From: a virus
DNA: 40,573 bases
Reading direction: 5' to 3' (one strand)
Virus record (IMG/VR): IMGVR_UViG_3300005340_000055
Location: 1-40,573 of that record
Part shown: positions 5,277-29,972 of the stretch, in pieces
Numbering within the stretch: position 1 is the stretch's first letter
Layout: each line of letters starts with the position of its first letter
Notes under the pieces: model-generated
Told to the model about the DNA's origin: nothing
What the model saw: only the letters and a program-made list of their open reading frames with translations
The model's database searches: none
Made by a program: the position numbers and the translations under genes

Positions 5277-7472
5277 ATGGCGCCGCGCACGACGTTTGCC
5301 GGCCTGACCGACGGGCTCAAGCCCGTCCCGCGTTTCCTCGACGAGATGTTCGCGGACACCGGCAAGCTTGGCACCATTCCGTGCACGGCGTCTGGCGCAA
5401 CCACGATCGCGTTGACACCGCTGAGCGCCGTCTTCGGCCCGACGATCTCGGCCTACAGCAACAATCTCCTGTTCTCGTTCATCGCGGTCGGAACACCGAG
5501 CGGCAACGTCACGGTCAACATCTCCGCAATCGGAGCAAAGAACCTCTATCAATCCGACGGCACGACGCAGGTCACGACGAACGGTCTTGCCTCCGGGTCT
5601 TTCAACCTCGCGGCATACTCCTCGGCTCTGAACAGCGGCGCCGGCGGCTTCTACCTCGTCAACAGCTCGGCCGCGAGCATCGTCGTCAAGGATTCGACGT
5701 TCACCGTCGTCGATGACGGCGACCAGACCAAGGCCTTCAAGTTCCAGCTTTCCGGCATCACGACCGGCAACACGCGGACCTGGACGGTTCCGGATGCGTC
5801 GTCGACGTTCGTTGGTACCGACACGACGCAGACGCTGACCGCCAAGACGCTGACGTCGCCCGCGATCGTGACCCCGAGCATCACCGGTGCGTTTCCCTTC
5901 CGCCTGCGCTCTCAAGGCGCCAATGCCTTTGATCTCGAGCTCAAGAACACCGAGACGCTGACAGCCAACCGGACGATTACGTTCGCTGTCACCGATGCCG
6001 ACAGCACGGTCACGCTCAAGGGCAACGCCAACTTCGGTGGCCCGTTCGCGATCGTCAGTCCCGGAACGGCAGGCCTGACCATCACCGCCGCCGGCGGGGC
6101 CGGCACGACGCTCAACATTCCGACCGCATTGACGCTGCCTGCCGTAGTGCAGGGCGATCTTTGGTATGGCTCCTCGGCCGGAGTGATCACGGCGCTGGCC
6201 AAGAACGCCAGTGCAACGCGCTATCTTTCGAACACCGGCACGACGAACAACCCGGCGTGGGCACAGATCGACGTCACGACTGGCATCACCGGCGCGGTAC
6301 CGGCTGCCAACGGCGGCACCGGCATCGCATCCTACGCGATCGGCGACCTCCTCTACGCGTCCGGCGCAACAGCACTGTCGAAGCTTGCCGACGTCGCGAC
6401 CGGCAACGCGCTGCTCTCCGGCGGCGTCACGACCGCGCCGGCCTGGGGCAAGGTCACGTCCTCGCATATGTCGGGGACGGCCAACCGGCTGTTCGGCACC
6501 GACGGGTCCGGCAATGGCACCAACGTCACGTTCCCGGCGGCGGGGCTTTCGATCTCGGCCGGCGCGCTGGTTCTGGCGAATGATCTCTCGGCGCTGGAGG
6601 GCTTGGGCAGCACCGGCTTTGCGGTGCGTACCACCACCGACACGTGGGCACAGCGCTCCCTCGCCAACGCCAGCGCGGGCCTGACCTGGACCAATGGTGA
6701 CGGCGTCTCGGGTAACCCGACGCCGGTCTTTGCCAATGACCTTGGTGCGATCGAGGCGCTGTCGTCGACCGGCATCCTAAAGCGCACCGGCACGGACACA
6801 TGGGCGCTGACCGGTGGCGTAGGTGATCTTGCGGCGGTCGCCGCCTATTCGCTGCTCGGCAACTTCACCGGATCGAGCGCGGCGCCGTCCGCGGCGACGA
6901 TCGGCGGCCTGACCCAGAAGGTGACCCCCGCGGGCACGGATCTGGTGCTGATCCAGGACCAGGCGGCGGGCGGCCAGCTCAAATATGCGACGGTCTCGTC
7001 GGTCGGTGCCTCGTCCGGCGTGTCGTCGATTGCGGGCAATACCGGAGCGTTCACGCTCGGGGTCGGTCTGACCAACGCGACCAATGATATTCGGGTCAGC
7101 CTTACGACACTCACCAACTACGCCGGGGCCAATGTAGCGCTTAATAGCGCTACGTATACCGATGGTCCGTCTGTTGCGCAGGGAACCACGGGAGTGTTTT
7201 TGGTTGTCGGCACCCTAACGCTTCTCGATAGTGCTGCCGGCGTCGCGTTCCAGCTCGTGCGCATATGGGATGGCACGACGACATACTCATCTGTCGCAAC
7301 AAATACTCCCGGCAGCAGCAATAATTCGAGCGTCACGCTCAGCGCGATTGTCACCAATCCAGCTGGCAATCTGCGGCTGTCGGCCAAATCGCAGAACGCC
7401 ACATCAAGAATTAGCTTTAACGACAGTGGGTTGAGCAAAGACAGCGGAATCGTGTGCGTGAGAATTGGATAA
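5277..7472 (+). CDS. Large tail fibre/appendage protein
   Basis: 731 residues. Residues about 35-130 form a beta domain (IPCTASGATTIALTPL... GAGGFYLV) that recurs in the small gene at 10191. Then come fibre-type modules: FKFQLSGITTGNTRTWTVPD, AANGGTGIASYAIGDLLYA, and two copies of a GS(T/S)GxxxRTxTDTWAxx unit. The last 110 residues look like a jelly-roll tip (TYTDGPSVAQGT). These modules are known from phage tail fibres and side fibres that trimerise. The tip-coding DNA is visibly less GC-rich and uses different codons, suggesting an exchanged receptor-binding end. It begins five bases after the previous stop. Fibre role is well supported; receptor unknown. Confidence 0.75.
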   Translation: MAPRTTFAGLTDGLKPVPRFLDEMFADTGKLGTIPCTASGATTIALTPLSAVFGPTISAYSNNLLFSFIAVGTPSGNVTVNISAIGAKNLYQSDGTTQVTTNGLASGSFNLAAYSSALNSGAGGFYLVNSSAASIVVKDSTFTVVDDGDQTKAFKFQLSGITTGNTRTWTVPDASSTFVGTDTTQTLTAKTLTSPAIVTPSITGAFPFRLRSQGANAFDLELKNTETLTANRTITFAVTDADSTVTLKGNANFGGPFAIVSPGTAGLTITAAGGAGTTLNIPTALTLPAVVQGDLWYGSSAGVITALAKNASATRYLSNTGTTNNPAWAQIDVTTGITGAVPAANGGTGIASYAIGDLLYASGATALSKLADVATGNALLSGGVTTAPAWGKVTSSHMSGTANRLFGTDGSGNGTNVTFPAAGLSISAGALVLANDLSALEGLGSTGFAVRTTTDTWAQRSLANASAGLTWTNGDGVSGNPTPVFANDLGAIEALSSTGILKRTGTDTWALTGGVGDLAAVAAYSLLGNFTGSSAAPSAATIGGLTQKVTPAGTDLVLIQDQAAGGQLKYATVSSVGASSGVSSIAGNTGAFTLGVGLTNATNDIRVSLTTLTNYAGANVALNSATYTDGPSVAQGTTGVFLVVGTLTLLDSAAGVAFQLVRIWDGTTTYSSVATNTPGSSNNSSVTLSAIVTNPAGNLRLSAKSQNATSRISFNDSGLSKDSGIVCVRIG
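7134..7153. repeat. 7-bp inverted repeat at a composition boundary
   Basis: GTAGCGC-TTAATA-GCGCTAC lies inside the fibre gene exactly where the sequence turns from GC-rich to visibly more AT-rich. It could be a relic of module exchange or chance coding sequence. Confidence 0.5.
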
Positions 7473-7478
7473 TCGGTC

Positions 7479-7823
7479 ATGCGCAACAGGAACGGCTACC
7501 GCAGCGGCGGGTTCTGGCGCATCGACGACCGCACCGGTTTTCGCGTGCGCGCCGACCGAACCGCCAAGGAATGGGACGGCACCATCGTCGCCCGCGAGGA
7601 CTTCGAGGAGCGCCATCCGCAGGACTTCGTGCGCGGTCGCCGCGACGAGATGCGTGTGCCGGATCCGCGTCCGGAGCCGGACGACATCACGCAAGCCGCG
7701 CCCGGCGGGCCGTTCATTCTGATCGAGCATGATGGCGACGGCACGGTCTCGATCGCGATCGCAGACGGCGATATCCGCATCTACGGCTCCGGCCCGGCCC
7801 AGATCACAGCGAGCGACCTCTGA
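7479..7823 (+). CDS. Conserved phage protein of unknown function
   Basis: 114 residues. Starts MRNRNGYRSGGFWRIDDRTG and continues with a basic region containing REDFEERHPQDFVRG, then a short C-terminal beta stretch (TVSIAIADGDIRIYG). The pattern is that of a small protein repeatedly found just before the gp4-like tail accessory gene in podoviruses, with no known activity. It overlaps the next start by one base (TGATG), so translation is coupled. A connector or assembly role is inferred only from its neighbours. Confidence 0.6.
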   Translation: MRNRNGYRSGGFWRIDDRTGFRVRADRTAKEWDGTIVAREDFEERHPQDFVRGRRDEMRVPDPRPEPDDITQAAPGGPFILIEHDGDGTVSIAIADGDIRIYGSGPAQITASDL

Positions 7824-8782
7824 TGGCGACAAGCGGCACCGCGACGTTCACGCGCACGCGCAACCAGGTCATCGAGGCAGCGGCGCGCAAGGTCCGTGCG
7901 ATCCGCGCCGGGCAGACGATGGGCCCGCAGATGCTCGCCGACTTCGCCGAGGCGCTCAACGTCATGGTGAAGCACTGGCAGGGGCGCGGCCTGCACGTCT
8001 GGACGGTCGCAGAGGCGACACTGTTCCCGCAGGTCGGCCAGACCCAGTACGCGCTCGCCGCAAGCGGCGCCGATCATGCGACGCTCTCGTATGTTGCAAC
8101 CGAGCTTGCCGTGGCCGGCACGAGCGGCGCGACGTCGATCACGGTCGACGACGACGACGGCGTTGCCGACAACGATCATATCGGGATTGTGCTCGATGAC
8201 GGCACGCTGTTCTGGACGACAGTGAACGGTACGCCGGCGTCCAACGTGATCACGCTCGACAACGCACTCACCGGCGCCGCGTCGGCAGGCAACGCAGTGT
8301 ACGCCTATACGAGCAAGATTGTGCGCCCGCTTAAGATCGTGGATGCGCGGCGCTACACGGTCGCGAGCGCGCGCGAGACGCCGCTCGCCGCGATGATGGC
8401 GCGGCTCGACTACCGGGCGCTGCCGAACAAGAGCCAGCTGGGCACCGTCACGCAGGCATTCTACGATCCGGCTCTCTCGACCGGAAAGCTGTCGCTGTGG
8501 CTCACGCCATCAACGGTCGGCGACCTGATCAATTTCACCTGGTGGCGGCCGATCGAGGATTTCAACGCGGCCGGCGACAATCCTGACCTGCCGACCGAAT
8601 GGATGCAGGCGCTGATCTTCAATCTCGCGCTCGTAATGGCCCCCGAGTTCTCGGTGGCGCAGGAGGACCTAGCGGGTCCGTTCGGCATCGGCACGCTGGC
8701 CGCCCAGTATCTCGAGGAGGTTTCAGGCTTTGATCGTGAGGCCGAGCCGGTGCAGTTCGGTCTCGACATGACGGGCTACTGA
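7823..8782 (+). CDS. P22 gp4-like tail accessory factor (head-tail adaptor)
   Basis: 319 residues. The N-terminal helices (NQVIEAAARKVRAIRAGQ, ALNVMVKHWQGRGLHVW) and the later DDGTLFWTTVNG and FNLALVMAPEF motifs match the gp4 tail accessory family of P22-like phages. In P22, twelve copies of gp4 bind under the portal and extend the channel for the tail; its P22 version also has peptidoglycan hydrolase activity. No hydrolase signature is visible here. It is coupled to both neighbours by TGATG junctions. Next to the gp10-like gene, it identifies this as a short-tailed phage. Confidence 0.75.
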   Translation: MATSGTATFTRTRNQVIEAAARKVRAIRAGQTMGPQMLADFAEALNVMVKHWQGRGLHVWTVAEATLFPQVGQTQYALAASGADHATLSYVATELAVAGTSGATSITVDDDDGVADNDHIGIVLDDGTLFWTTVNGTPASNVITLDNALTGAASAGNAVYAYTSKIVRPLKIVDARRYTVASARETPLAAMMARLDYRALPNKSQLGTVTQAFYDPALSTGKLSLWLTPSTVGDLINFTWWRPIEDFNAAGDNPDLPTEWMQALIFNLALVMAPEFSVAQEDLAGPFGIGTLAAQYLEEVSGFDREAEPVQFGLDMTGY

Positions 8783-10194
8783 TGCGCATCCAGTTCGCGA
8801 CGCAGAGCTACCGGTCGAAATCGCTTCCGGTCTCGGCGCAGCGCGTCGTCAACATGTACGCGGCCGCGCAGCCGAAAGACGCCAAGAGCGACATTGCGCT
8901 CTTCGGTGACGCCGGCGTCGGTGATTTTGCCGTCTGTGGCAACGGCCCGGTGCGCGCGATGCACTTGCTCGGCGGCGTTCTTCACGCTGTCTCAGGCGGC
9001 ACGCTCTACCAGGTGGCAAGGAACGGGACTGCGACGGCCGTCGGCTCGACTATTCTCGGCTCCGATCCGGTGTCGGTCGACGATAACGGCGATCAGCTCG
9101 CGATCGTCAACGGATCCAACGGCTATATCTTCTCGGAGGCATCCGGCTTTCAGCTCATCGCGGACGCCGACTTCCACGCCGCCGGCAGCGTGACCTACAT
9201 GGACGGTCGGTTCGTGTTCGATCGCTCCGGCACGAACGAATTCTTCATTTCCGATACGCTCGATGGCACGGCCTACAGCGATCTGTTCGCGAGCGCGGAA
9301 TGGAAATCCGACAACGTCGTAAAGGTGCTCAATCATCTGCAGACGCTCTACGTCATGGGCGCGACGACGGTTGAGCCATGGTATTCGTCAGGCGCCGCGA
9401 ACTTTCCGTTTCAAAGGATCGAGCAAGCCGGCGTCGATCGCGGAATCATCGGTGCGAATGCGGCCGTGAGCGAGGATCAGACGCTGTACATGATCGGCAG
9501 CGATCGCATCGCGCATCGCATCGCTGCCGGCCAGATCACGCCGATTTCGACGGATGCGCTCAACGAGGCCTGGCAGGACTATGCCCGGGTCTCCGACGCG
9601 CACATGTTCTCCTTCACCTTCGATGGCCATCGGTTCATCGTCGTCACCTTTCCTTCGGTGCCAGCGACCTTCCTCTTCGACAAGAATACCGGGCTCTGGC
9701 ACGAGCGCGTGTCGTGGGACCAGAACGGCCGATCGCTGGGGCGCTGGCGCGGCAACTGCGCGATTGCTGCCTACGACAAGGTGCTCATCGGTGACGCGTT
9801 CTCGGGGCGGATCGGCTATCTCGACAAGAACCTGTTCACCGAATGGGGCAACACGATCCAGGTCGAGTTGATCTCGCCGCCGATCCACGCCGATGGTGCG
9901 CGCGCCGAGATGCCGTGGTTCGAGCTCGACATCGAGACCGGCGTCGGGCTGGCGAGCGGGCAGGGCAGCGATCCGCAGATCATGCTTTCGATTTCGGATG
10001 ACGGCGGCCACACCTGGTCGGATCAGGAGTTGTGGCGCTCCATGGGTGTGCTCGGCGCCTACAAGACACGCCTGCGCTGGGACCGCCTCGGCGGGTTTGA
10101 GGAAAGCCGTCTGCTGAAGGTCACGATCGCCGACCCGGTGCGCCGAACGATCATCGCGGCGCGATGTCCCGGCTTGAGGGCGGCCCGGATATGA
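8782..10194 (+). CDS. P22 gp10-like packaged DNA stabilisation protein
   Basis: 470 residues. Begins with FATQSYRSKSLPVSAQRVVNMY, a typical start of this family, followed by a run of beta blades (GGVLHAVSGGTLY, MDGRFVFDRSGTNEFFISD, TLYVMGATTVEPWY, HRFIVVTFPSVPATFLFD). In P22, gp10 forms a hexamer that closes the tail channel below gp4 and holds the DNA in. A start coupled to the gp4-like gene by TGATG and the matching order gp4-gp10 support the call. Length is near that of P22 gp10 (about 470). Confidence 0.8.
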   Translation: MRIQFATQSYRSKSLPVSAQRVVNMYAAAQPKDAKSDIALFGDAGVGDFAVCGNGPVRAMHLLGGVLHAVSGGTLYQVARNGTATAVGSTILGSDPVSVDDNGDQLAIVNGSNGYIFSEASGFQLIADADFHAAGSVTYMDGRFVFDRSGTNEFFISDTLDGTAYSDLFASAEWKSDNVVKVLNHLQTLYVMGATTVEPWYSSGAANFPFQRIEQAGVDRGIIGANAAVSEDQTLYMIGSDRIAHRIAAGQITPISTDALNEAWQDYARVSDAHMFSFTFDGHRFIVVTFPSVPATFLFDKNTGLWHERVSWDQNGRSLGRWRGNCAIAAYDKVLIGDAFSGRIGYLDKNLFTEWGNTIQVELISPPIHADGARAEMPWFELDIETGVGLASGQGSDPQIMLSISDDGGHTWSDQELWRSMGVLGAYKTRLRWDRLGGFEESRLLKVTIADPVRRTIIAARCPGLRAARI

Positions 10195-10637: not shown

Positions 10638-11092
10638 TTCGGCCCGCAGGTCACGCCGATATTCCGGCGATCCTCACCATGGGACGGCGGTTCTTCGACG
10701 CCGCCGGCTGGCCGGAAGTCACGACCTGGGACGAGGCATCGGTGCGCGCGACCTTGTCCGGCCTCATCGACGGCAAGGTCCCGGGCGGCCTCATCGTTGC
10801 CAATGAGGGCGGGCGCGCGATCGGAATGGTCGGCTTCATGGCGTTTCCGTTCTACTTCAACTTCGCCGTGACGGTCGCTCAAGAGGTTTTCTGGTGGGTA
10901 GAGCCAGATCAGCGCTTCGGTGTCGGCGCGCAGCTGCTCGACGCCTTCGAGACAGCGGGGCGCCAGCGAGGCGCCAGCGTCTTCATCGTCTCCGCGGTGG
11001 CGCGCCTGCGCAGCGCAACGCTCGAGCGCTTCTACCAGCGGCGAGGATACGCGCCGGCCGAAAATACGTTCATAAAGAGGTTCGCGGCATGA
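10634..11092 (+). CDS. GNAT-family N-acetyltransferase
   Basis: 152 residues, GNAT fold. Starts MIRPAGHADIPAIL, a standard GNAT first strand and helix; the strand IGMVGFMAF is followed by the acetyl-CoA region around FWWVEPDQRFGVGAQLLDAF and an end in LERFYQRRGYAPAENTFIK. The usual Q/R-x-x-G-x-G/A loop reads QRFGVG. GNAT enzymes move an acetyl group from acetyl-CoA to an amine. Genes of this type sit between the tail closure and ejection protein genes of many podoviruses; the target is unknown, possibly a virion or host protein. It is ATGA-coupled on both sides. Confidence 0.75.
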   Translation: MIRPAGHADIPAILTMGRRFFDAAGWPEVTTWDEASVRATLSGLIDGKVPGGLIVANEGGRAIGMVGFMAFPFYFNFAVTVAQEVFWWVEPDQRFGVGAQLLDAFETAGRQRGASVFIVSAVARLRSATLERFYQRRGYAPAENTFIKRFAA

Positions 11093-12201
11093 TCGGAACC
11101 GGCACCGCAATTCTCGGCGCGGCCGCGCTCGGCCTCGGCGGATCGCTCTTTGCCTCCAATCAGGCTAGCAAGGCCGGCGACGTCCAAGCCCAGGCCGCGC
11201 GCGAGGGCTCGCAGGCGCAAATTCAAGCGCTGCTGATGGCGCAGGGGTTCACGCGCGAGAACGCCGAGAAAGCCGCGGCCGCGATCAACGGCGCGCTCCC
11301 GAACGCGCTGTCGGCGCTGCAGGGCGGGCAGAGCGGCGTCACGTCGGCGATCGGCGCCGGAACGGATGCCATCAACAGCGGCGCGACCAACGCGCTCGCG
11401 GCCGTTCGCGGTGCCGGCGCGAACGCTAGCGGCAGCTTCTCGCCCTATATCGATACGGGCAACAAGGCGACGTACACGCTCGCCAGCCTCTACGGGCTCA
11501 ACAGCGGCGGCCAGGTCCCCGGCAACGCGCTGGAGATGATCCGCAACTCGCCGGACTATCAGTTCGCCCAGCAGGAGGGCATGAACGCGCTGGAGAACTC
11601 CAACGCCGGCAAGGGCCTGCTGCGGTCATCCGAGCACATGCGGAGCGCACAGACCTTCGGGCAAGGGCTCGCGACGCAACAGTTCGGCAATTATGTTGGG
11701 CGGCTCCAAGCGCTGTCCGGACAAGGCCTGACCGCGACCGGCGCGCGCGCGAACGTCGATGTCGGCACCGGCAATATGCTCGCACAGATCTACGGCAATC
11801 AGGGCACCGCCCTTGCCGGACAGGACAACGCGCTCGCGAACTATCTGGCCTCGCTCGGCATCAACACGGCGAACCTATTCACCGGGCAGGGCAACGCGCT
11901 TGCTAACGTCTGGACGGGGCAGGGCAACGCGCTTGCTCAATCTCAGGGCCAGATCGGCGCCGCGGCGAACGCCGGCATCACGGGCGCCGGCCAAGCGAAC
12001 GCCGCCGGCATCGTCGGCAGCGCGAATGCGATCAACGCTGGCGTGACCGGCGTCGGCAACAGCGTCAACAGCCTGATGAACTACAATCTGATGTCGCAAT
12101 TGCTGGCGGCGAAAGGCGGCGGCGTTGCCGGCGGCACGACCGCCGTACCGAACTATCTCGCCTCAAATCCGACCGGCTACTCCTGGCCCGCCGCCGCGTG
12201 A
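11089..12201 (+). CDS. Ejection/internal virion protein, P22 gp7-like candidate
   Basis: 370 residues from ATG 11089, which overlaps the acetyltransferase stop (ATGA). The N-terminus is a hydrophobic, Gly/Ala-rich segment (GTAILGAAALGLGGSLFAS) that could insert into a membrane. The rest is Ala, Gly, Asn and Gln-rich, with repeats such as FTGQGNALANVW and WTGQGNALAQ and others based on GQ(G/D)NALA. Position just before the transglycosylase and gp20-like genes, and composition, match P22 gp7-type proteins that are ejected to form a DNA channel across the cell envelope. The call rests on composition and order, not on a catalytic motif. Confidence 0.6.
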   Translation: MIGTGTAILGAAALGLGGSLFASNQASKAGDVQAQAAREGSQAQIQALLMAQGFTRENAEKAAAAINGALPNALSALQGGQSGVTSAIGAGTDAINSGATNALAAVRGAGANASGSFSPYIDTGNKATYTLASLYGLNSGGQVPGNALEMIRNSPDYQFAQQEGMNALENSNAGKGLLRSSEHMRSAQTFGQGLATQQFGNYVGRLQALSGQGLTATGARANVDVGTGNMLAQIYGNQGTALAGQDNALANYLASLGINTANLFTGQGNALANVWTGQGNALAQSQGQIGAAANAGITGAGQANAAGIVGSANAINAGVTGVGNSVNSLMNYNLMSQLLAAKGGGVAGGTTAVPNYLASNPTGYSWPAAA

Positions 12202-14358: not shown

Positions 14359-16548
14359 ATGGCCGATCCTGCTGCTGATCCCTGGGCCGGGTTCAACGTA
14401 GCGCCAGCGCCGGCCGCCGCGCCTGACCCGTGGGCCGGTTCAAATGTGAAGCCCGAGGAGAAGGGCGTCGCAAATCGCATCGTTGACGCGATCGGTGGCG
14501 CCGCATCCGCCGTTAAGAAGGCCGTCGTTGGCGAGAACGAGTTCGACTATCCGGAAATCGTCTCGATGAACGGCACCCGCAACATGGAGGCGGTGTCCGA
14601 TCTCCTGAGGGCGCGCGGCGACGCCGGCATGCTCGACGTTTTGCGAAAGCATGATCCAAACTTGCCGGTGACGAAGGACAAATTCGGCAACACCGTCGTC
14701 ACGTTCGAGGGCAAACCCTTCTACCTCAACCGGTCCGGGCTCTCCGGACGTGACATGGAGGAGTTCGGCCGAGACGTTGCCATCACGGCGCCATTCGCGG
14801 CCGGCGCCGCGGCGGCGACCGCGGCCAGATCGCTGATCCCGCGGGTGCTCGCCCAGGGCGCTGCGGGCGGTGCTGGTTCGCTCGCGACGGATGCGCTGTC
14901 TGCGACGGCCGGATCGGAGCAGGGCGTTGACGTGCCCGCGCTGGTCGCCAGCGTCATAGGTGGCGCCGGTACCGAGGTTGCCGGCAGCGTGATCAGCACC
15001 ATCATCAACCGGGTGAAGACAGCGCCCGGCCGCTATGTCGCGCCCGACGGCTCGTTGACCGATGCCGGTGCGCGCATCTTCACCTCGGCCGGGTTCGATC
15101 CGGCCGACATTTCAGCGAAACTCGCTCGTGAATTCGCCGCTCGCGCCCGCAAAACCGGTCCGAACGAGGCAACAGCCCGCGAAGTGGCCGCCAACGAGTT
15201 CGGAATTCCGCTCACACGTGGTCAGGCGACCGCGGATTTCGACCAAATCGCGTTCGAACAGGCCGCCAAAGCCGGCGCGCGCGGTGAAATGGCCGGCGAC
15301 ATCATGCGCGGGCGCTTCGCTACGCAGCGCGAGGCGGTCGACGCCTCGAAATCCAGCATCGCGAACGACATCGCGCCGCTGACCCCGACCAGGAATGTCC
15401 AGGAATCGGCTGGCGTTACGCTTGAAGGCGTTCGCAGCGAGGCCAGGACGCTCAAGGAGAACGTCGATAGGGCCTACGACGTCGCCCGCGCTGAAATGTC
15501 GGGCGCGGCCGTCGATCGTGGGGCGGTCACTGAGCTGCCGAACATCGCCCGTGCAGCGCTGCGCGAGCAGGGTTTTGTCTTCGATAAGGATCTGATGCCG
15601 CTGACCACGCGCGCCTTGTCGATGCTGGACGATCTGGGGGCGTTGAAGGTCAAGAACGAAGCGTTTCAGCCCGGCGTTTCGACGCCGAAGAACATGGACG
15701 ATGTCGTCGGCGTCGCCATGGACGCGATCGAGATGGTCCGCAAGAACATCGGCGGGAAAACCGGACTACTCGCCAAGGCGGGTGACGACGCCGAGCGCGC
15801 AGGCCTCAAGACGGTCGTGAAATCATTCGATCAATGGCTCAATTCCGTTTCCGACGCGGCACTGATCTCCGGCAGGCCCGAGGCCGTCGAAGCCATCAAA
15901 GCGGCGCGCGCCGAGGCCTCCAAGCGATTCTCACTCATTGGAAAGCGCAACGAGCTCGATGACGCCGGGCCCGTCATCGACCGCATGATCAAGTCCGACG
16001 TGACCGAGCAGGAGGTTGCCAACTTCCTGTATGGCGCTGGCAAGGTCGGGGAGAGCGGGCGCGGCTATCGCGTCGCAAAGCGCGTCGAGGAGATCGTTGG
16101 TCGAGACAGTGACGCATGGGATGCGGTCCGCCGCGGCATGTGGCAGCGCCTAACCGAGAACGCCGAAGGCAAAACGCAGCCTGGGCCTCAGGCTGTCAGC
16201 CAGAACATCTACGAGTTCGTCAACGGCAAGGGCAAAGCTCTCTCGGAGCTCCTTTTCGACGATGCCGAGCGCGCCACAATGCGGCGCTATGCCAAGGTGC
16301 TCAAAGATACGGTTCCGCCGGTCGATGCCACCAATCCCTCAAAATCCGGATACGAGGTCGCGCGCGCTCTTGGTGGCGTCTTCAACGCCAACGCGCCCTT
16401 CTATGTGCGGATTTTCGGCCTCGGCAAGAACTTCAAGAACACGCTCGATGCGATCCCGTCCGGCGCGCCGCCAATGCGCTCTCCAGCGGCGGCCGGGCTC
16501 CCCGCTCTCGGCGCAGTCAGCGGCGAGCGCTATCTCGCGGATCAATAG
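14359..16548 (+). CDS. Large ejection/DNA injection protein, P22 gp20-like candidate
   Basis: 729 residues, starting immediately after the previous stop (TAAATG). N-terminal repeats of DPWAGxNV (residues 7-34) precede a hydrophobic Ala/Gly stretch around 135-210 (TAPFAAGAAAATAA, VIGGAGTEVAGSVIS) that could span membranes. A long helical region follows with conserved segments such as EFGIPLTRGQA and KAARAEASKRFSLIGKR. Last of the virion core genes, its length, helicity and hydrophobic patch resemble ejected core proteins of podoviruses. No enzymatic motif is visible. Confidence 0.6.
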   Translation: MADPAADPWAGFNVAPAPAAAPDPWAGSNVKPEEKGVANRIVDAIGGAASAVKKAVVGENEFDYPEIVSMNGTRNMEAVSDLLRARGDAGMLDVLRKHDPNLPVTKDKFGNTVVTFEGKPFYLNRSGLSGRDMEEFGRDVAITAPFAAGAAAATAARSLIPRVLAQGAAGGAGSLATDALSATAGSEQGVDVPALVASVIGGAGTEVAGSVISTIINRVKTAPGRYVAPDGSLTDAGARIFTSAGFDPADISAKLAREFAARARKTGPNEATAREVAANEFGIPLTRGQATADFDQIAFEQAAKAGARGEMAGDIMRGRFATQREAVDASKSSIANDIAPLTPTRNVQESAGVTLEGVRSEARTLKENVDRAYDVARAEMSGAAVDRGAVTELPNIARAALREQGFVFDKDLMPLTTRALSMLDDLGALKVKNEAFQPGVSTPKNMDDVVGVAMDAIEMVRKNIGGKTGLLAKAGDDAERAGLKTVVKSFDQWLNSVSDAALISGRPEAVEAIKAARAEASKRFSLIGKRNELDDAGPVIDRMIKSDVTEQEVANFLYGAGKVGESGRGYRVAKRVEEIVGRDSDAWDAVRRGMWQRLTENAEGKTQPGPQAVSQNIYEFVNGKGKALSELLFDDAERATMRRYAKVLKDTVPPVDATNPSKSGYEVARALGGVFNANAPFYVRIFGLGKNFKNTLDAIPSGAPPMRSPAAAGLPALGAVSGERYLADQ

Positions 16549-16900: not shown

Positions 16901-18289
16901 ATGGCTGCAGATCGCTTTACATTGCCGTTTCAGCAGCTTCTGACCGCGACACCGACGGTGCGCGTCGGTCACAAGCTCAAGTTCTATGCCTCAGGCACGT
17001 CGACACCGCTGGCCGTCTACACCGACAGCGCGCTGTCGGCAGGCTCGTCGACGACGGTCACGTTAAACGCGCTTGGCCAACCCGACGTCGCGATCTTCCT
17101 GCAGAATCTCGCCTATAAAGTCGTCTGCACCGACGAGAACGATGTCGAGATCTGGACTGCTGACCCGGTTTACGGCGCGCAGTTCTCGACCGTCGCCCAG
17201 GTGCAAACGGTGCTCGGAACTCCGACCGGTCAGCTCGCCGGGACCCAGGGCAGCGTTGGCGTTCCGGCCTCGATGGCATGGGACGCGACGAACAGCATCC
17301 TTTACGTCTGCACCGCGACGGGTACGAGCCTGACCGCGGTGTGGACCGCGATCAATGCTTCGACGGCTGCCGCGGTCGTGCCCGCGCCGCAGGGGCGGCT
17401 TACGCTGACATCCGGAGCGCCGTTCCCGAGCGTCGATACGGCGACCAGCACGGTGTATTACACGCCGTACTGCGGCAATCTGGTGCCGATCTACAACGGC
17501 GCCTCGTTCGTTCCGCTGTCGTTTTCAGAACTCAGTCTTGGGCTGGTCGGCAGTCATTCCAGCGATACGATCTATGACGTGTTCGCGTTCAACAATTCAG
17601 GCGTGGTGACGCTCGTTACCGGGCCGGCATGGACAAGCTCAACCGCTGGCTCTGGAAGTCGTGGCACAGGCGCTGGTACGACGCAGTTGACCCGAATTTC
17701 CGGGCTTTACGTCAACACAGTCTCGATGACCGGCCGCAACGGTTCGAACACCTATTCGATCGGCGCAAACCTTGCGACCTATCTCGGCTCGATCTTGATT
17801 GCTGCGTCGGCCGGGCAGATCAACTGCCATGCGGGCTACGGCACGGCGCGCCAGTGGGGTGTATGGAATGCGTTCAATCGCCTGCCGATCGTCTTGCGTG
17901 AAGGCGACCCGGCCTTGACGTGGACCTACGGCACGATCGCGTGGCGCGCCGCCAACAACAACGCAAACAACAAGATCACGACGTTTTGCGGGTTGGCGGA
18001 AGAGCATATCGACGTCACGTACATCACCATATCGAGCGCGACCAACCTCGAATACGAGACAGCGATCGGGGTCAACTCTGCGTCGGCGCCAACCGCCTTT
18101 AACTCCACGGCCGGCACCACGGTGCTGCTGAATACTCCGCAAGTCGTGCACTACACGCTCAGTGCTCGCATCGGCGTCAACACCATCACGGCGCTGGAAT
18201 CCGTCGAAAGCTTCCTCGGCGCGCCCTCGAACGCGACGCTGTTCGGTACCGAACTCGCGATGGAATTGAAGGCGCAGTGGAACGGCTGA
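16901..18289 (+). CDS. Tail fibre protein with head-binding-type N-terminus
   Basis: 462 residues. Residues 1-95 match the widespread N-terminal domain of phage fibres and spikes: GHKLKFYASGTSTPLAVYTD, then a strand with NALGQPDVAIFL and YKVVCTDENDVEIWTADPVYG. A linker with WDATNSILYVCTATG leads to a C-terminal receptor-type domain from about residue 165 (QGRLTLTSGAPFP... TVYYTPYCGNLVPIYNG), rich in Asn, Thr and Ser, ending ELAMELKAQWNG. The C-terminal domain is shared with the exported protein encoded next. GAGG precedes the ATG. The protein probably attaches to the tail by its N-terminus and binds host surface polysaccharide. Confidence 0.75.
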   Translation: MAADRFTLPFQQLLTATPTVRVGHKLKFYASGTSTPLAVYTDSALSAGSSTTVTLNALGQPDVAIFLQNLAYKVVCTDENDVEIWTADPVYGAQFSTVAQVQTVLGTPTGQLAGTQGSVGVPASMAWDATNSILYVCTATGTSLTAVWTAINASTAAAVVPAPQGRLTLTSGAPFPSVDTATSTVYYTPYCGNLVPIYNGASFVPLSFSELSLGLVGSHSSDTIYDVFAFNNSGVVTLVTGPAWTSSTAGSGSRGTGAGTTQLTRISGLYVNTVSMTGRNGSNTYSIGANLATYLGSILIAASAGQINCHAGYGTARQWGVWNAFNRLPIVLREGDPALTWTYGTIAWRAANNNANNKITTFCGLAEEHIDVTYITISSATNLEYETAIGVNSASAPTAFNSTAGTTVLLNTPQVVHYTLSARIGVNTITALESVESFLGAPSNATLFGTELAMELKAQWNG

Positions 18290-18375
18290 GATCTGACCTT
18301 GGCTGAGGGCGCGACGCTCAATTTACAACCCCAGGTCATTCGTGCTATGGGCGAACGAAAGCAGTGTACACAATT

Positions 18376-19425
18376 ATGACGCGTTTTCTGGTGGGTGCCC
18401 GTCTGGGCATTTTTGTTGTCACCGCCGCATTCGTGGCGGCTGCGCCAGCGACCGCCCAGACGCCGCCAGGCGGACGGCTGACAGTCGTCAGCGGCGGATG
18501 CAGCGTCGTCACAGATCAGGTCGCGCAGACCAACCTCTATTACGCGCCGTGCAACGGCCGCACGGTCCCGGTCTATGACGGGACCAGCGTTGTCTCGCTC
18601 GATTTTACATCTGGACTGAACGACACGGTCGGCCTCACGCTGGCGCTGGCCGGCAGTGCGAGTTGGGCGCCCAATACACTGTACGATGCATTTGTGACGG
18701 CGAGCCGGGATCTTTGCACCGGCCCAGCCTATGCAGACTCTGGTGCGGGAACGAGTGCGCGTGCGGCCACGGGCGGGCTTGCGATCGCGGCCGGATATCC
18801 GACCAACGCATCCAACGGGATGACGTGCCGAACTGGGGCTTCAACAACGGTCTCCTGTGCGACCAATCAATGCACCTATGTCGGCACCGTCTTGACCGGC
18901 GCATCGGCCGGAACCATCGATCTGAAATTCGGCACCAACGCGACGAACTGCGGCAAGGCCATCCTCTCGGTCTACAACGCCTACAATCAGAAGGCCGTGC
19001 GTGCGTCGGTATCCGATAGCGTGCAGAACTGGACCTATACGGCGGCGACATGGCGCCCAGCGCACGGGCAGACAAACTGCTCGATCGATGTTGTGGCCGG
19101 GCAGAGCACAGATGTGTTCTCCGCAAAATATCTTCAACGGGTCAACCCAGTCGCGGGCGGCGCTTATGGTGCGATCACGCTCGGGCTGAACGGCTACGCG
19201 ACGATTGCGGCGCGCGCCTTCAGCGCCCTGTTCCAGTGCGTGGGAGGCACGACAGCCTGCACCGAAGTTCTGGTCGCGACGATGGACGACAATCTCGCTC
19301 CGGGCCTCAACACGATTTATGCGATGGAGCAGAGCGACAGCTATCACGCCAACGTCTTCAACGGTCAGAACTCGGCTGGCGGGATAATGCAGCAACAGAT
19401 GCTCAGCTATACGGGCGCGATGTAG
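18376..19425 (+). CDS. Exported, Cys-rich paralogue of the fibre C-terminal domain
   Basis: 349 residues from ATG 18376 (GTG at 18364 would add four). The start is a signal peptide: [11 protein letters not shown], a hydrophobic core ([12 protein letters not shown]) and an ATA-Q cleavage site. The mature part follows the C-terminal domain of the fibre at 16901: [61 protein letters not shown] and [10 protein letters not shown]. At least ten cysteines, few of them present in the fibre, suggest disulphides formed after export. Exported virion-like proteins are uncommon in phages; it might be a surface protein of infected cells or lysogens. Function not known. Confidence 0.65.
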
Positions 19426-19426
19426 C

Positions 19427-20578
19427 ATGAACAGATGTCTGGCGATCATCGCGCTCGCTTTATCTGTTCATGACGCGAGTGCGGGCGATCTGTTCTACCT
19501 GCAGGAAACCAGTTCTGTCCTGACGTTCAAGGACACCAATTACAAGACACTCGACACGCAGACGATCAACACGGCGGTGCAGAACTGCATCTGGATCACG
19601 GGTGGCCAGTCGAATATCGTCAACGTGTCGCCGTCGAACTTCCTGCCAGTCAACCCGAATGCCATCGGCAATCTGAACCCGAACGACGGGGCAATCTACA
19701 AGGCCGAAGACCCTCTGGTTGGCACGAACCTGCCGTCTTCAACGCCGAAGTACCCGATGGGGTTCTTCACCGCGACGATCTCCGGCACGACCATGACGGT
19801 GTCGGCCATCTCGGCCGGGACGATTGCCGTTGGCCAGTCGATCTTCGGGAGCGGCGTTACCAAGGCGCTGGTGACGGCGCTCGGCACCGGGGCGGGCGGG
19901 ACAGGGACATACACGGTTTCGGTGGCGCAGACGGTCTCCAGCCCGACCGCCGTCGCCACGACATGGAACGGCGGGCACCCACTGCTGCGTACCGCCGACG
20001 CCATGGTGACGGCCGGAAAATGTGCGCGGGTCATCATCGTGCCGATCGCGATTGACGGAACGACGGCCACCGAATGGGACACTGGAGTTTTCAAGGAGCG
20101 TATCCCTGTTGCGCTGCGCCGGATCGCGCAGCGGATCAGCCCGGCCAAGTGCGGCGACACGAACGTTTCATGCGCGATCCTGTGGGGCGAGGGTGAAAGC
20201 GCCAACACCTACGGGACATCGCAAGCCGCGCAAACCGCGGCCTATAACAATCTGATCGCAACCAGCAATGCGGTCGCGGCTTCCTTGGGCTGGTCCGCAT
20301 CGTGGGGGCGGTGGCTGATAGCAAGGCAGTCGTTCTACGACACCTACGGAACGAACGCGGCCATACAGGCAGCGCAAGCGGCCGTCGTGAACGGAACGCA
20401 AGTCTTCGCGGGTGCGAACGCCGATGCGCTGCAGGGCAACGTGTGCGGCCCGTCAGCGAACGCCTCATGCCGTTTCCCGAATGCCTCGCACTTGGGAAAT
20501 GACGGGTCCTATTCATACGCCCTCGATCCGACACACGGATGGAAAGCCAAGCTGCAGGCGTCAGGCGCGCCGTACTGA
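19427..20578 (+). CDS. Exported SGNH hydrolase, sialate O-acetylesterase-like
   Basis: 383 residues, one base after the previous stop. A signal peptide ([19 protein letters not shown]) precedes a CE6/SASA-type esterase: WITGGQSN holds the nucleophile Ser62, WGEGES (about 253-258) matches the usual Q/W-GE motif, and [10 protein letters not shown] gives the likely catalytic His355, with Asn where Asp is usual three residues before. Residues about 114-177 are an inserted beta domain ([19 protein letters not shown]... [13 protein letters not shown]) of a type scattered among phage proteins. Several paired Cys fit oxidation outside the cytoplasm. Such enzymes remove acetyl groups from polysaccharide. 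Substrate unknown. Confidence 0.7.
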
Positions 20579-20632: not shown

Positions 20633-20851
20633 ATGCGATGCCTCGCAGCGCTGGCGCTCGCCGGCGCGCTTACTGCTGTCGGTTGGTCAACGGCCGCGCT
20701 GCCAAGCGAGCGCACCGCGATGATGTCGGCGACCGACGTGCTGCGCGCCATGCGCTGCGCTCCACCGATCCGGTGCTCGGTGCCGCGCAAACAAAAGCCG
20801 AGGCCAACCGGGAAGCGCGGCAAATCACGCGCGTCGATCAAGAGGATGTGA
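20633..20851 (+). CDS. Small exported basic protein
   Basis: 72 residues, not recognised. MRCLAALALAGALTAVGWSTAA reads as a signal peptide or membrane segment; the remainder turns strongly basic (CSVPRKQKPRPTGKRGKSRA). The gene ends one base before the endolysin start, with AGGTG upstream of the ATG, so it belongs to the lysis cassette by position. A role at the inner membrane during lysis is possible but unproven. Confidence 0.55.
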   Translation: MRCLAALALAGALTAVGWSTAALPSERTAMMSATDVLRAMRCAPPIRCSVPRKQKPRPTGKRGKSRASIKRM

Positions 20852-20852
20852 G

Positions 20853-21758
20853 ATGACTGCCGAGAACTTTGCATTCTGCGACAAGCGCGTTCTCGTCTAC
20901 GAGGGCGGCAAGGTCAACAATCCGCGCGACCCTGGGGGCAAGACCAATCAGGGCGTGATCCAGCGCGTCTATGATGGCTACCGGCGGCGCAAGGGCATGA
21001 AGCCGCGCGACGTCTATCTGCTGGAAGATGCCGAGCGCGACGAGATCTACCGCGATCAGTACTGGACGCCGACCCGTGGTGATGACCTCCCTGCCGGCGT
21101 CGACCTGGTGGTCTATGATGGCGCGGTCAATTCCGGGCCGGTGCAGTCGATCAAGTGGCTGCAGCGCGCGCTGACCGACGCCGGGCTCTATCACGGCAGC
21201 ATCGACGGGCATGTCGGAGAGGGCACGCTCTCGGCGATCGAGCAACACACGGACATCGCCGGGCTGATCAAGGCGATCTGCGGCCGGCGCATGACGTTCC
21301 TCAAAGCGCTCAAGGTGTGGCCGGAGTTCGGCAAGGGTTGGACCCGCCGCGTTGCCGACGTGCAGCGTGCCGCGATTACGTTGGCGCAAGCCGGCACCGC
21401 GCGCGTTCCGGCGCCGTTCGGGTCTGACGGGCAGCGCAAGGCCTCGATCTCCGATGCGAAGGATGCGCCGCAGACGGCCGCGGCGGACGTGTCGGCCGGC
21501 AGCGGCATCGGCGCGGCGACGTTGACACAGGCCACCACTGCACTGCAGCCGCTTGTCGAGACGTCGCATACGATCGCCTACATCTTTACTGGCCTGACCG
21601 TGCTTGGCGTGCTGCTGACCGTCGGCGGGCTGCTCTGGGGCATGTGGGCACGCAAGCGCCGCGCCGAACTCCACGATGCACTTGACCTGGCGCCCCTGCC
21701 GGCGCCCGCGCTCCCGGTTCCTGACGATGTGGCGGCGCCGGAGAGCGAGGCCGCATGA
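20853..21758 (+). CDS. Endolysin, GH108 family, with C-terminal membrane segment
   Basis: 301 residues. Residues 1-90 are glycoside hydrolase family 108 (N-acetylmuramidase): VLVYEGGKVNNPRDPGGKTNQGV with the catalytic Glu in EGG (E17). Residues 90-170 are the linked peptidoglycan-binding domain (YDGAVNSGPVQSIKWLQRAL, DGHVGEGTLSAIE). After an Ala/Gly/Thr linker, residues about 239-266 form one hydrophobic helix (IFTGLTVLGVLLTVGGLLWGMW) followed by a basic then acidic tail. This places the enzyme against the inner membrane, unlike the N-terminal signal-anchor of SAR endolysins. GAGG precedes the start; it overlaps the spanin gene by ATGA. Confidence 0.8.
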   Translation: MTAENFAFCDKRVLVYEGGKVNNPRDPGGKTNQGVIQRVYDGYRRRKGMKPRDVYLLEDAERDEIYRDQYWTPTRGDDLPAGVDLVVYDGAVNSGPVQSIKWLQRALTDAGLYHGSIDGHVGEGTLSAIEQHTDIAGLIKAICGRRMTFLKALKVWPEFGKGWTRRVADVQRAAITLAQAGTARVPAPFGSDGQRKASISDAKDAPQTAAADVSAGSGIGAATLTQATTALQPLVETSHTIAYIFTGLTVLGVLLTVGGLLWGMWARKRRAELHDALDLAPLPAPALPVPDDVAAPESEAA

Positions 21759-22460: not shown

Positions 22461-22916
22461 ATGGAAAACGCTGGGCTTTACGTCGCAATAGCGGCCCTCC
22501 TGCTCAACACCATCGGTACAGTGGTCGGCGTAACCCGTGCGCTCGGCAAGATGGAAGTCTCGTTGCGCGAAGCCATCACGACCGAGCGCAAGGAAATCGA
22601 TAGTGCGCTCGGCGCCATACGGCGAGACTTCGACGACAAGGTCGATGAGATCGAACGGCGTTTCGGCGAGACGGCAGCGTCGCTGCGCGAGGCGCTGCGC
22701 CTGAGCGAGAAGGCGGCGACGGACCAGGTGGCAAAACTGCTGGCGGATATGAACAGTTTTGCCATGTGGTCGCGCGATCATTTCGTACGGCGCGACGGCT
22801 TCTACAAGGTCCGCGACGACCTGCAAGCCGACATGAAGGCACTCGGCAAGCAGATCACCGATGGGCTCTCCAGCATGGAGAGCAAGATCGACGCCATAAG
22901 GGATCGGGGCTCATGA
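22461..22916 (+). CDS. Membrane-anchored coiled-coil protein of the lysis region
   Basis: 151 residues. One hydrophobic helix at the N-terminus (LYVAIAALLLNTIGTVVGV) followed by about 120 residues of charged helix (EIDSALGAIRRDFDDKVDEIERRF, LSEKAATDQVAKLLADM). A short aromatic stretch MWSRDHFVRRDGFYKV interrupts the coil. Layout resembles an i-spanin or a structural anchor more than a holin. It is ATGA-coupled to the next gene. Exact role not known. Confidence 0.55.
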   Translation: MENAGLYVAIAALLLNTIGTVVGVTRALGKMEVSLREAITTERKEIDSALGAIRRDFDDKVDEIERRFGETAASLREALRLSEKAATDQVAKLLADMNSFAMWSRDHFVRRDGFYKVRDDLQADMKALGKQITDGLSSMESKIDAIRDRGS

Positions 22917-23287
22917 CGAAACGGTGTGTGCTGGCCGCGCTCGTGCTTCTGGCATGCGCGCCGGCTGTATTTGCTCAAGAGCATCGCCACCCCGTTGCCG
23001 ACATGCCGATGCACGACAAGTTCTATTCGCGCTGGATGCGGCCGGACATGCCCACGCAATCGTGCTGCAACAAGGCTGACTGCTACCCGACCGAAGCGCG
23101 TCAGATCGGTGGACGATGGCAAGCTCGGCGCCGCGAAGACGGCAAGTGGATGGATGTCCCGGCCTCCAAGATCGAGCAGAATCGCGACAGCCCGGACGGC
23201 AGGAACCACCTGTGCGCGCCACCTCCCGACCGTGAGCACGTCTATCCAAGCGGGGTCATCTGTTTCATCGCCGGCGTGGGCGGGTAA
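22913..23287 (+). CDS. Exported conserved protein with paired cysteines
   Basis: 124 residues from ATG 22913. Signal peptide MTKRCVLAALVLLACAPAVFA-Q, then a compact domain: FYSRWMRPDMPTQSCCNKADCYPTEA, RRREDGKWMDVPASKIEQN, SPDGRNHLC and a final VICFIAG. I recognise the pattern from alphaproteobacterial phages and prophages, where it is annotated as hypothetical. Six or more cysteines after the signal peptide suggest disulphides in the periplasm. Last gene of the late operon, close to the terminator; perhaps a periplasmic factor of lysis or of lysogens. Function unknown. Confidence 0.65.
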   Translation: MTKRCVLAALVLLACAPAVFAQEHRHPVADMPMHDKFYSRWMRPDMPTQSCCNKADCYPTEARQIGGRWQARRREDGKWMDVPASKIEQNRDSPDGRNHLCAPPPDREHVYPSGVICFIAGVGG

Positions 23288-28316: not shown

Positions 28317-29972
28317 TCACGCCGCCTTCTTCTTGGCTGGTTTCTTCGCCGGCGCCTTCTTTGCTCCGGGCCCGTCGTATCCGGCAACACGCAGCTGTTC
28401 CGGAAGCCACTTGGTCTTGGGCACATTGGCGATCGCGAACGCCGCGGCCTCGCCAGTCTTCATCTTGAGCACCTTGGCGCCGTGGTCTTTGCCCATCGCC
28501 TCGGTGACGGCCTGCGCGATGATCGCCTTGCTGATCCCGCCGAAATAGTCTTTCGGGTCGAAGACCTCGCGCAGCGCCGCATTCATGCGCTTGGGGTCGA
28601 TTGCGTTGCAGATGGTCGAGGCTGCATCTTCCTCGTTGAATGCATCCCGGCTCGCGTTGTAGTTCCGGAAATCGAACGCGCCGCCGACCAGCTTAGCGAA
28701 CAGCGCCATTTGCTCTTTCGGCGCCATCTTGCCGATGCGCGTGAATGCGGCATCGAATTCTTCGTCGTACTCGATCTCGCGCGCGCCGAATCCGTCATTT
28801 CGGAGCTTCACGCCGGTTTCATATGAGATCAGCGCCGCCACCGCGATCGTCAGCGCGAGCGACGGATCGCTCTCGACCGCCTTTGCCGCAGCCACCGTCA
28901 GCGCGCAACTCAGCCGGTGCGCCATGGCATTGGATATCGCGGCTTCAACGGTCTCGCCCTTGGCCTTGGCGGCTGCGGTCTTTGTCTTCTTCTGCTGCGA
29001 CGGCTTCTGCATCGCGTAACGGATCTCGAGCGTGCCATCGTGCTTGAGTTCGACGAGACACCCGGACTTGGCCATGTTTTCGGGCGATTGCTTTTTGCCA
29101 CCAGGCAGCTGGGTCCAGTTCCAGGTGCTGTGTCCGGCCTCTTCGCGCGTCTCGGCCCAAGACCAGCCTTCCGCCTTCAGCGCTGCGCATTTGTCGGCAA
29201 GCTTCTTGTCGGCGAGCTTGCGCAAAAGCTTCTCATCCGACACCGCAGAGTTGTCGTTCTCTTTCTCGGCGAACAGATCCTCGATAATGGTCCCGCCGGC
29301 GGCCTCATAGTCCTTGCGGCCGACAAAATGGAGCAACTTCGCGGCACCGTCTTGGTCGCCGACGATCGCGCGGCGGATTTGCCAATTACTGGCGCGCTTG
29401 CCGACCTTCTTGAAAACACGCTCCTGATCGGCATGATCGGCCGCCATCGTATAGGCTTGAGCCTCTTCCTCATCGAGTTCGCCGGCGCGCCATGCCTCGC
29501 GGATCTTCGGCGAGAGTGCGGCCAACGCCAGCGACTGCTGTACATATCGTTTGCTCGTGCCGTACCGCGCCGCGATCTCCTCGATCGTATCGCCGCCGGC
29601 GATGAACGCGGTGCAGGCCTCGAACTCGTCGACCGGGTGCATCTCGTCGCGGAACAGGTTGAGCGCCAGCGACGTATCGCGCGCCTGCTCGTCGGTTGCT
29701 TCCTCGATCGTGACCGGGACCGGATATTCCGAGGTGACCGGAATACCCTTGATGTCCTGCTTGGCCTTGGCGATCGTCTGCAGGGCGCGGAGGCGTTTGC
29801 CGCCATCCGCGACCTTATAGCCTTCGCCGTTGAGGCGGACCAGGAGCGGGATCTTGATGCCGATCGCGCGGACGTTCATCACGAATGCGGGCGATGGCTC
29901 GACATCGGTTTTGCGGACGTTGATCGGGTCGATCGAGAGTTGAGAAAGCGGGACGTGGCTGACGCTGGTCAT
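28317..29972 (-). CDS. ParB/Spo0J-like nuclease-domain protein
   Basis: 551 residues. The N-terminal ParB domain (1-100) reads VPLSQLSIDPINVRKTD, AIGIKIPLLVRL and DGGKRLRALQTIA, the last replacing the usual GERR motif. Residues 125-165 form a helix-turn-helix (TIEEIAARYGTSKRYVQQSL and KIREAWRAGEL). The middle is a long helical part, and the end is a Lys/Pro/Ala-rich tail. Plasmid ParB-like proteins bind parS sites or act as CTP-gated clamps or nucleases; no ParA ATPase gene is seen in the window. The phage protein could regulate transcription or take part in replication. It starts by ATGA with the upstream gene. Confidence 0.75.
   Translation of the reverse strand: MTSVSHVPLSQLSIDPINVRKTDVEPSPAFVMNVRAIGIKIPLLVRLNGEGYKVADGGKRLRALQTIAKAKQDIKGIPVTSEYPVPVTIEEATDEQARDTSLALNLFRDEMHPVDEFEACTAFIAGGDTIEEIAARYGTSKRYVQQSLALAALSPKIREAWRAGELDEEEAQAYTMAADHADQERVFKKVGKRASNWQIRRAIVGDQDGAAKLLHFVGRKDYEAAGGTIIEDLFAEKENDNSAVSDEKLLRKLADKKLADKCAALKAEGWSWAETREEAGHSTWNWTQLPGGKKQSPENMAKSGCLVELKHDGTLEIRYAMQKPSQQKKTKTAAAKAKGETVEAAISNAMAHRLSCALTVAAAKAVESDPSLALTIAVAALISYETGVKLRNDGFGAREIEYDEEFDAAFTRIGKMAPKEQMALFAKLVGGAFDFRNYNASRDAFNEEDAASTICNAIDPKRMNAALREVFDPKDYFGGISKAIIAQAVTEAMGKDHGAKVLKMKTGEAAAFAIANVPKTKWLPEQLRVAGYDGPGAKKAPAKKPAKKKAA

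Follow-up and report, generated by a model that had tools for sequence, protein, structure and literature searches.

Predicted Sec export of a receptor-binding protein and an esterase encoded behind the tail fibre of a podovirus with P22-like parts, and signal-bearing fibres in related phages

Introduction

The assembly of tailed-phage virions is regarded as an entirely cytoplasmic process. What, then, is the role of two adjacent genes directly behind a tail fibre gene whose products both have predicted Sec signal peptides? The question is raised by the IMG/VR virus record IMGVR_UViG_3300005340_000055, a stretch of 40,573 bases that is called the window throughout. The first of the two genes (18376-19425) specifies a protein consisting of a receptor-binding domain (RBD) homologous to that of the fibre, and the second (19427-20578) specifies an esterase. 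No description of tail fibres with signal peptides was found in the open-access PubMed Central (PMC) text that we searched, and a survey of phage-encoded target proteins of diversity-generating retroelements, many of them lectin-like, noted the absence of signal peptides (PMC6199706). Through comparison of the pair with its relatives in considerably more than a hundred phages, and in bacterial genomes, we arrive at a reading that we favour, if by a modest degree of confidence: the two are proteins of the adsorption (tail-fibre) apparatus, synthesised as Sec preproteins, processed in the periplasm, and joined to virions at or after lysis.

Signal peptides of the pair

Both proteins have the hallmarks of Sec/signal peptidase I preproteins in a rule-based prediction. 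The purpose-written predictor, which considers the charge of the n-region, the hydrophobic core and an AxA-type cleavage site, called all the controls (MalE, OmpA, PhoA, PelB, DsbA and Lpp) as signals with scores of 4.1-5.5; it gave 5.0 to each member of the pair and rejected the neighbouring fibre (16901-18289). The predicted mature starts are Q28 in the RBD protein and G20 in the esterase. A preliminary description of the locus had reported two adjacent signal-bearing genes behind the fibre, and both the signals and their coordinates are confirmed. It had also proposed that the pair may be secreted. This is well supported by sequence comparison, since the signals recur in distant relatives, those of fibre and esterase are paired, and cysteine pairs track the signal.

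Signals on an anchoring fibre

In related phages, signals are also present on a fibre that contains the anchoring domain itself. This collar-type fibre, here F1, opens the fibre cluster of the survey loci L156/L079, L096 and L151 (the last a prophage in a complete chromosome), and is signal-bearing in each of them. It is homologous to the tail fibre Pam5_16 of Pseudanabaena phage Pam5 (45%) and matches the solved tailspike head-binding domains (profile E=3e-10; hhalign 96.7%). The same domain family, represented by the P22-type head-binding domains of PDB 7eeq and 9vyg, anchors both F1 and the fibre of the window; however, the solved chains begin directly with the domain and have no signal peptide.

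A scan recovered 80 loci, and of 79 usable F1 proteins there are 43 with a signal, 35 without and one unclear. The signal-less versions begin with MAGTIPLS, whereas the signal-bearing ones read AxA|AGTIPxS. Thus, the predicted cleavage point (A|AGTIP) coincides with the start of the signal-less form (M-AGTIP), and the signal appears to be a prefix on the same mature protein. Both cysteines of a pair in the anchoring domain are found in 36 of the 43 signal-bearing F1 proteins as against 0 of the 35 signal-less ones, and the two residues co-occur (p=1e-17). A single cysteine of the pair is left in four signal-less F1 proteins (L189, L194, L195 and L199), as expected after loss of export. The simplest reading of these sequence patterns is that adsorption proteins of these phages are exported, that their signals are cleaved and that the cysteine pairs become periplasmic disulfides. 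One could alternatively see the N-terminal hydrophobic segments as uncleaved parts of the virion, such as membrane-active peptides deployed during infection. Their canonical n-h-c structure with AxA|(Q/A) sites, the agreement of the mature starts with the signal-less starts, and the cysteine pair that tracks the signal all speak against this, and we hold it to be extremely improbable.

F1 is present in exactly one copy in all 20 of the 20 signal-bearing records checked, most of which are 39-44 kb in size. If the sole anchoring fibre is exported, the virion either lacks that fibre or is loaded with it after export, most simply at lysis. Signals were seen on none of 250 open reading frames (ORFs) upstream of F1. 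They were found on a downstream fibre in 14/36 loci with a signal-bearing F1 versus 2/30 with a signal-less F1 (p=0.002), one of the latter two looking like a false call. The premise of the preliminary description that virion proteins usually have no Sec signal hence fails in this phage group, where cleavable-looking signals occur on anchoring fibres homologous to tailspike head-binding domains. A link of the signals to lysogeny was also considered and rejected: integrase genes are common in signal-bearing and signal-less phages alike.

Signals across the related receptor-binding domains

The alignment of the fibre RBD, used as bait, recovered 80 loci from viral records and 19 from genomes, whose ORFs were then profiled; a genome scan with the exported RBD alone as bait gave no matches. 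The hosts that are named are mainly Bradyrhizobium and other Alphaproteobacteria. Signals are present on 19 of the 89 non-redundant RBD proteins (three of these calls being judged partly by eye), including versions from Bradyrhizobium, Tardiphaga and Bosea genomes. An anchoring-type domain lies directly behind the signal in L006, L057, L062, L069, L070 and L089. On the well-supported branches of the RBD tree, the signal must have been gained or lost at least seven times. The RBD has an even number of cysteines in 17/19 signal-bearing versus 31/70 signal-less proteins (p=3e-4). A general enrichment of cysteines in the exported RBDs was not found (mean 3.05 versus 2.04, p=0.34); only the clade of the window protein, L008 and L079 and some others are cysteine-rich, even parity and specific pairs being more widespread. 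The signals of an RBD protein and the esterase that follows it go together: both have one in five loci, neither in 13, and none are mixed (p=1e-4). Further RBD-esterase loci add one with both (L139, in which the twin-arginine-like signal of the esterase was judged by eye) and three with neither.

For some signal-bearing RBD genes in chromosomes, no tail region is evident in the vicinity, and in L033 an RBD-esterase pair is placed between integrase-like and terminase-small-like genes (identified by eye). Such settings would suit adhesins or lysogenic-conversion factors that act on the infected or lysogenic cell and are unrelated to virions. However, in most signal-bearing cases the gene stands where a fibre is encoded within a structural cluster (L151, L156, L159-L238), and this explanation appears very unlikely.

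Several individual loci extend the picture. In L151, an esterase partner (14535-15425) has a twin-arginine-like signal (TRRAAIM...GFA|Q) beside fibres with Sec signals, suggesting that one fibre cluster may use two export routes. The Bosea genome locus L026 has tandem signal-bearing RBD fibres (5511-6719 and 6743-7918) with identical signal peptides, a likely duplication of an exported fibre. Signals also occur on fibre-like proteins that have no match to the RBD profile (L077, 7727-9487 and 9484-10458; L008, 6771-8695; L030, 5049-6626), so that families other than those covered here probably share the pattern. In L006 (8963-9742) and L008 (11310-12080), signal-bearing phage proteins resembling outer-membrane beta-barrels are encoded near exported fibre clusters; replacement of the receptor is a possible role for these.

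Among named phages, the closest counterparts of the pair's arrangement are in Rhizobium phages vB_RleM_PPF1 (PPF1_27/28), RHph_Y25 and RHph_N2 and Agrobacterium phage Rivra (20/21), where a homologous RBD protein and then a homologous SASA esterase follow directly behind a fibre or tail gene; in contrast to the window, neither protein has a Sec signal and the RBD has fewer cysteines. The tail spike Pam5_18 of Pam5 shares the C-terminal RBD (39% to the fibre of the window), but both it and Pam5_16 are without a signal peptide and its RBD has no cysteines. In Bradyrhizobium phage ppBdUSDA122-1 (OP596612), the tail-fibre position is occupied by two genes in succession, each of which has a Sec signal; this phage differs in having a tail tape measure gene, other distal domains (collar type) and no esterase.

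The RBD-only protein

The product of the first gene is homologous to residues 165-438 of the fibre (33% identity, E=1e-24), and has 10 cysteines in its mature form versus three in the corresponding fibre domain. The preliminary description had seen in it a repeat of the fibre's own C-terminal domain with added cysteines. The homology and the added cysteines stand, but a recent duplication of the neighbouring domain is rejected by the tree of 89 RBDs, in which the protein groups with L008 and L079 (support 100) and the fibre falls in another clade. By sequence, it is a distant homolog of the fibre RBD. All three members of its clade are signal-bearing and cysteine-rich (10, 8 and 6 cysteines in the domain), and each is followed by an exported esterase; the signal of L008, judged by eye, may be a lipoprotein signal (lipobox-like VSA|C).

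The AlphaFold2 model of the mature protein has a mean pLDDT of 91. In Foldseek searches, part of this predicted fold is similar to trimeric lectins of the TNF/C1q-like type and to a domain of a phage spike, the TNF/C1q-like match being partial (~150 columns, E about 5e-4, TMt 0.57-0.64, only 10-13% identity in the structural alignment). The TNF-like lectins in question are the N-terminal domain of BC2L-C and PLTL. The modelled fold would point to carbohydrate binding.

The RBD-only architecture with an export signal, and the lipobox-like motif of L008, would also be compatible with a decoy, whereby a soluble RBD occupies the receptor within an infected or lysogenic cell or at its surface and controls superinfection, as the preliminary description had suggested. 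Phage exclusion lipoproteins such as Llp of T5 act on the receptor from the periplasm. However, nothing independent speaks for this idea and the predicted fold would point to carbohydrate; the soluble protein would need to encounter the receptor in the periplasm first, and the signals on anchoring fibres are left unexplained. As these fibres have signals too, a signal alone does not point to a decoy or superinfection control, and the signal-bearing and signal-less phages both mostly have an integrase. A masking role found no support, and we regard the decoy as distinctly unlikely.

The esterase

The second gene specifies a SASA-type SGNH esterase, and the preliminary description had likewise called it an SGNH esterase; the assignment is based on homology, motifs and fold. 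The Pfam SASA match is below the gathering cut-off (E=0.0012, 18.9 bits against 24.8), but phage homologs are annotated as sialate O-acetylesterases, the predicted fold matches the SGNH esterases 2apj and 1zmb, and the block I serine (GQSN), the block III GEGE and the block V histidine are conserved in the alignment with relatives. Block V reads N-x-x-H (N-A-S-H, N352), as opposed to D-x-x-H in nearly all relatives. The protein is also distinguished by an insert of ~80 amino acids (aa) that none of the other esterases in the alignment has.

Proposed loading at lysis and the alternatives

We propose, from comparative sequence evidence, that both proteins would almost certainly cross the membrane through Sec and lose their signals to signal peptidase I, and that they would then very probably fold and form disulfides in the periplasm. 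Once the endolysin and spanins open the cell, the exported proteins could meet the released virions and attach to the fibre or tail, a step we consider somewhat likely to occur. Such late addition is made plausible by P22 tailspikes, which are able to attach to finished heads or particles in vitro. During the following infection, the RBD, as a disulfide-rich TNF/C1q-like receptor-binding module, would bind the polysaccharide receptor and the esterase would trim it by removing O-acetyl groups from the surface polysaccharide; the case for this last step is evenly balanced. Of the traits of a virion fibre or receptor-binding protein, the RBD protein has both the homology to the fibre RBD and the position in the fibre locus.

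Several points weigh against this proposal. The anchoring fibre of the window is itself signal-less. The exported RBD protein has no recognizable virion-anchoring domain, its mature form beginning directly with the RBD, unlike L006, L057, L062, L069 and F1, which retain an anchoring-type domain after the signal. For this pair, attachment to virions is therefore a conjecture, and its role may instead be purely secreted, be it receptor editing or decoy. The association of cysteines and signal in F1 is partly phylogenetic; well-supported branches provide only four independent contrasts, none in the opposite direction, which are too few for significance. The asparagine in place of aspartate in block V leaves the activity of the esterase uncertain. 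However, PDB entry titles for the acetylesterase AnAE (mutants N267D and H270A) imply a native N-x-x-H there, so that Asn352 need not abolish activity. Finally, we know of no shown precedent for the loading of tailed-phage fibres from the periplasm.

The absence of an anchoring domain from both members of the pair, and their signals next to a signal-less anchoring fibre, would also fit periplasmic editing of the receptor. Polymerisation and ligation of O-antigen both take place on that side of the membrane. There the esterase could strip the O-acetyl groups of O-antigen or exopolysaccharide subunits that are still on their way to the surface, with the lectin-like RBD tethering it to the polymer; newly made polysaccharide would no longer bind the phage, thereby limiting superinfection and the loss of progeny on debris. 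A layout like that of the window recurs in L194 (signal-less F1, signal-bearing RBD protein and esterase), and L046 has a signal-less fibre followed by a long, signal-bearing, cysteine-rich fibre. On the other hand, editing leaves the signals on enzyme-less, single-copy anchoring fibres unexplained, and the signal-less version of the pair sits behind fibre or tail genes in the Rhizobium phages. We therefore think it unlikely, and continue to favour adsorption proteins that are added to virions at or after lysis.

Genomic context

The features of the locus are collected in Table 1. The first ORF of the pair starts at the ATG at 18376 (or a GTG at 18364) and the second at the ATG at 19427, with one base between them. 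Parts of the window are P22-like and the phage is a podovirus: it has a P22-type head-closure/stabilisation protein (8782-10194; Pfam E=5e-13, phrog_578 E=2e-104), a DNA-ejection protein (10894-12201) and, on the opposite strand, a terminase-like gene. Downstream of the ejection genes, the order is fibre, pair, endolysin and a possible spanin.

Table 1. Features of the fibre locus in the window
Feature	Position	Strand	Evidence
Signal-less tail fibre/spike with an N-terminal head-binding-like domain (aa 1-94) and a C-terminal RBD (aa 160-449)	16901-18289	+	PDB 9vyg/9vyh tail spike, E=1e-9 to 3e-7; 7eeq head-binding domain, E=9e-6; RBD profile
Exported RBD-only protein (predicted), mature form 322 aa with 10 Cys	18376-19425	+	33% identity to fibre RBD; AlphaFold2; Foldseek
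Signal peptide of RBD-only protein, 27 aa	18376-18456	+	Rule-based prediction; clade-mates L008 and L079 also signal-bearing
Exported SASA-type SGNH carbohydrate esterase (export predicted); Ser62 (GQSN, 19610-19612), GEGE 254-257, His355 (20489-20491), Asn352 for the usual Asp	19427-20578	+	Homology, motifs, fold
Signal peptide of esterase, 19 aa	19427-19483	+	Rule-based prediction
Inserted module of esterase, ~80 aa, similar to phage tail-fibre modules; low model confidence	19733-19975	+	phrog_38233 (tail fiber protein) E=2e-11 and phrog_21413 E=4e-13, both on aa 113-183
Small ORF, uncertain gene, between esterase and endolysin; possible weak signal peptide	20633-20851	+	Rule-based score 3.6
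GH108 endolysin, start of lysis region behind the pair	20853-21758	+	Pfam Glyco_hydro_108 E=3e-23; phrog_315 endolysin

The lysis region also codes for a small, predicted exported, cysteine-rich protein (22913-23287; MTKRCVLAALVLLACAPAVFA|Q...SCCNKADCYP), with look-alikes near the endolysin in Pam5 (Pam5_20), L022 (6689-7267), L044 (9744-10103) and L048 (8702-9004). A ParB-like gene is present on the minus strand (28317-29972) and no match to Phage_integrase was found within the window, which is possibly a plasmid-like prophage or an incomplete record.

Implications

More generally, it may be that many alphaproteobacterial tailed phages build part or all of their adsorption apparatus outside the cytoplasm, through Sec export, clipping to the N-terminus of their cytoplasmic relatives, formation of periplasmic disulfides and addition at lysis, a proposition that we judge about as apt to hold as to fail. 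The pair of the window would be a partial case, with export limited to the distal RBD and the esterase. Because a single fibre occurs naturally both with and without a signal, the question of export can be tested directly. If many phages do export fibres, the last step of virion assembly would take place at lysis and disulfides would become usable in fibres. Periplasmic Sec, signal peptidase and Dsb functions would then be phage host factors, and receptor-binding proteins would be misassigned by filters that rely on signal peptides to tell phage proteins from cellular or secreted ones.
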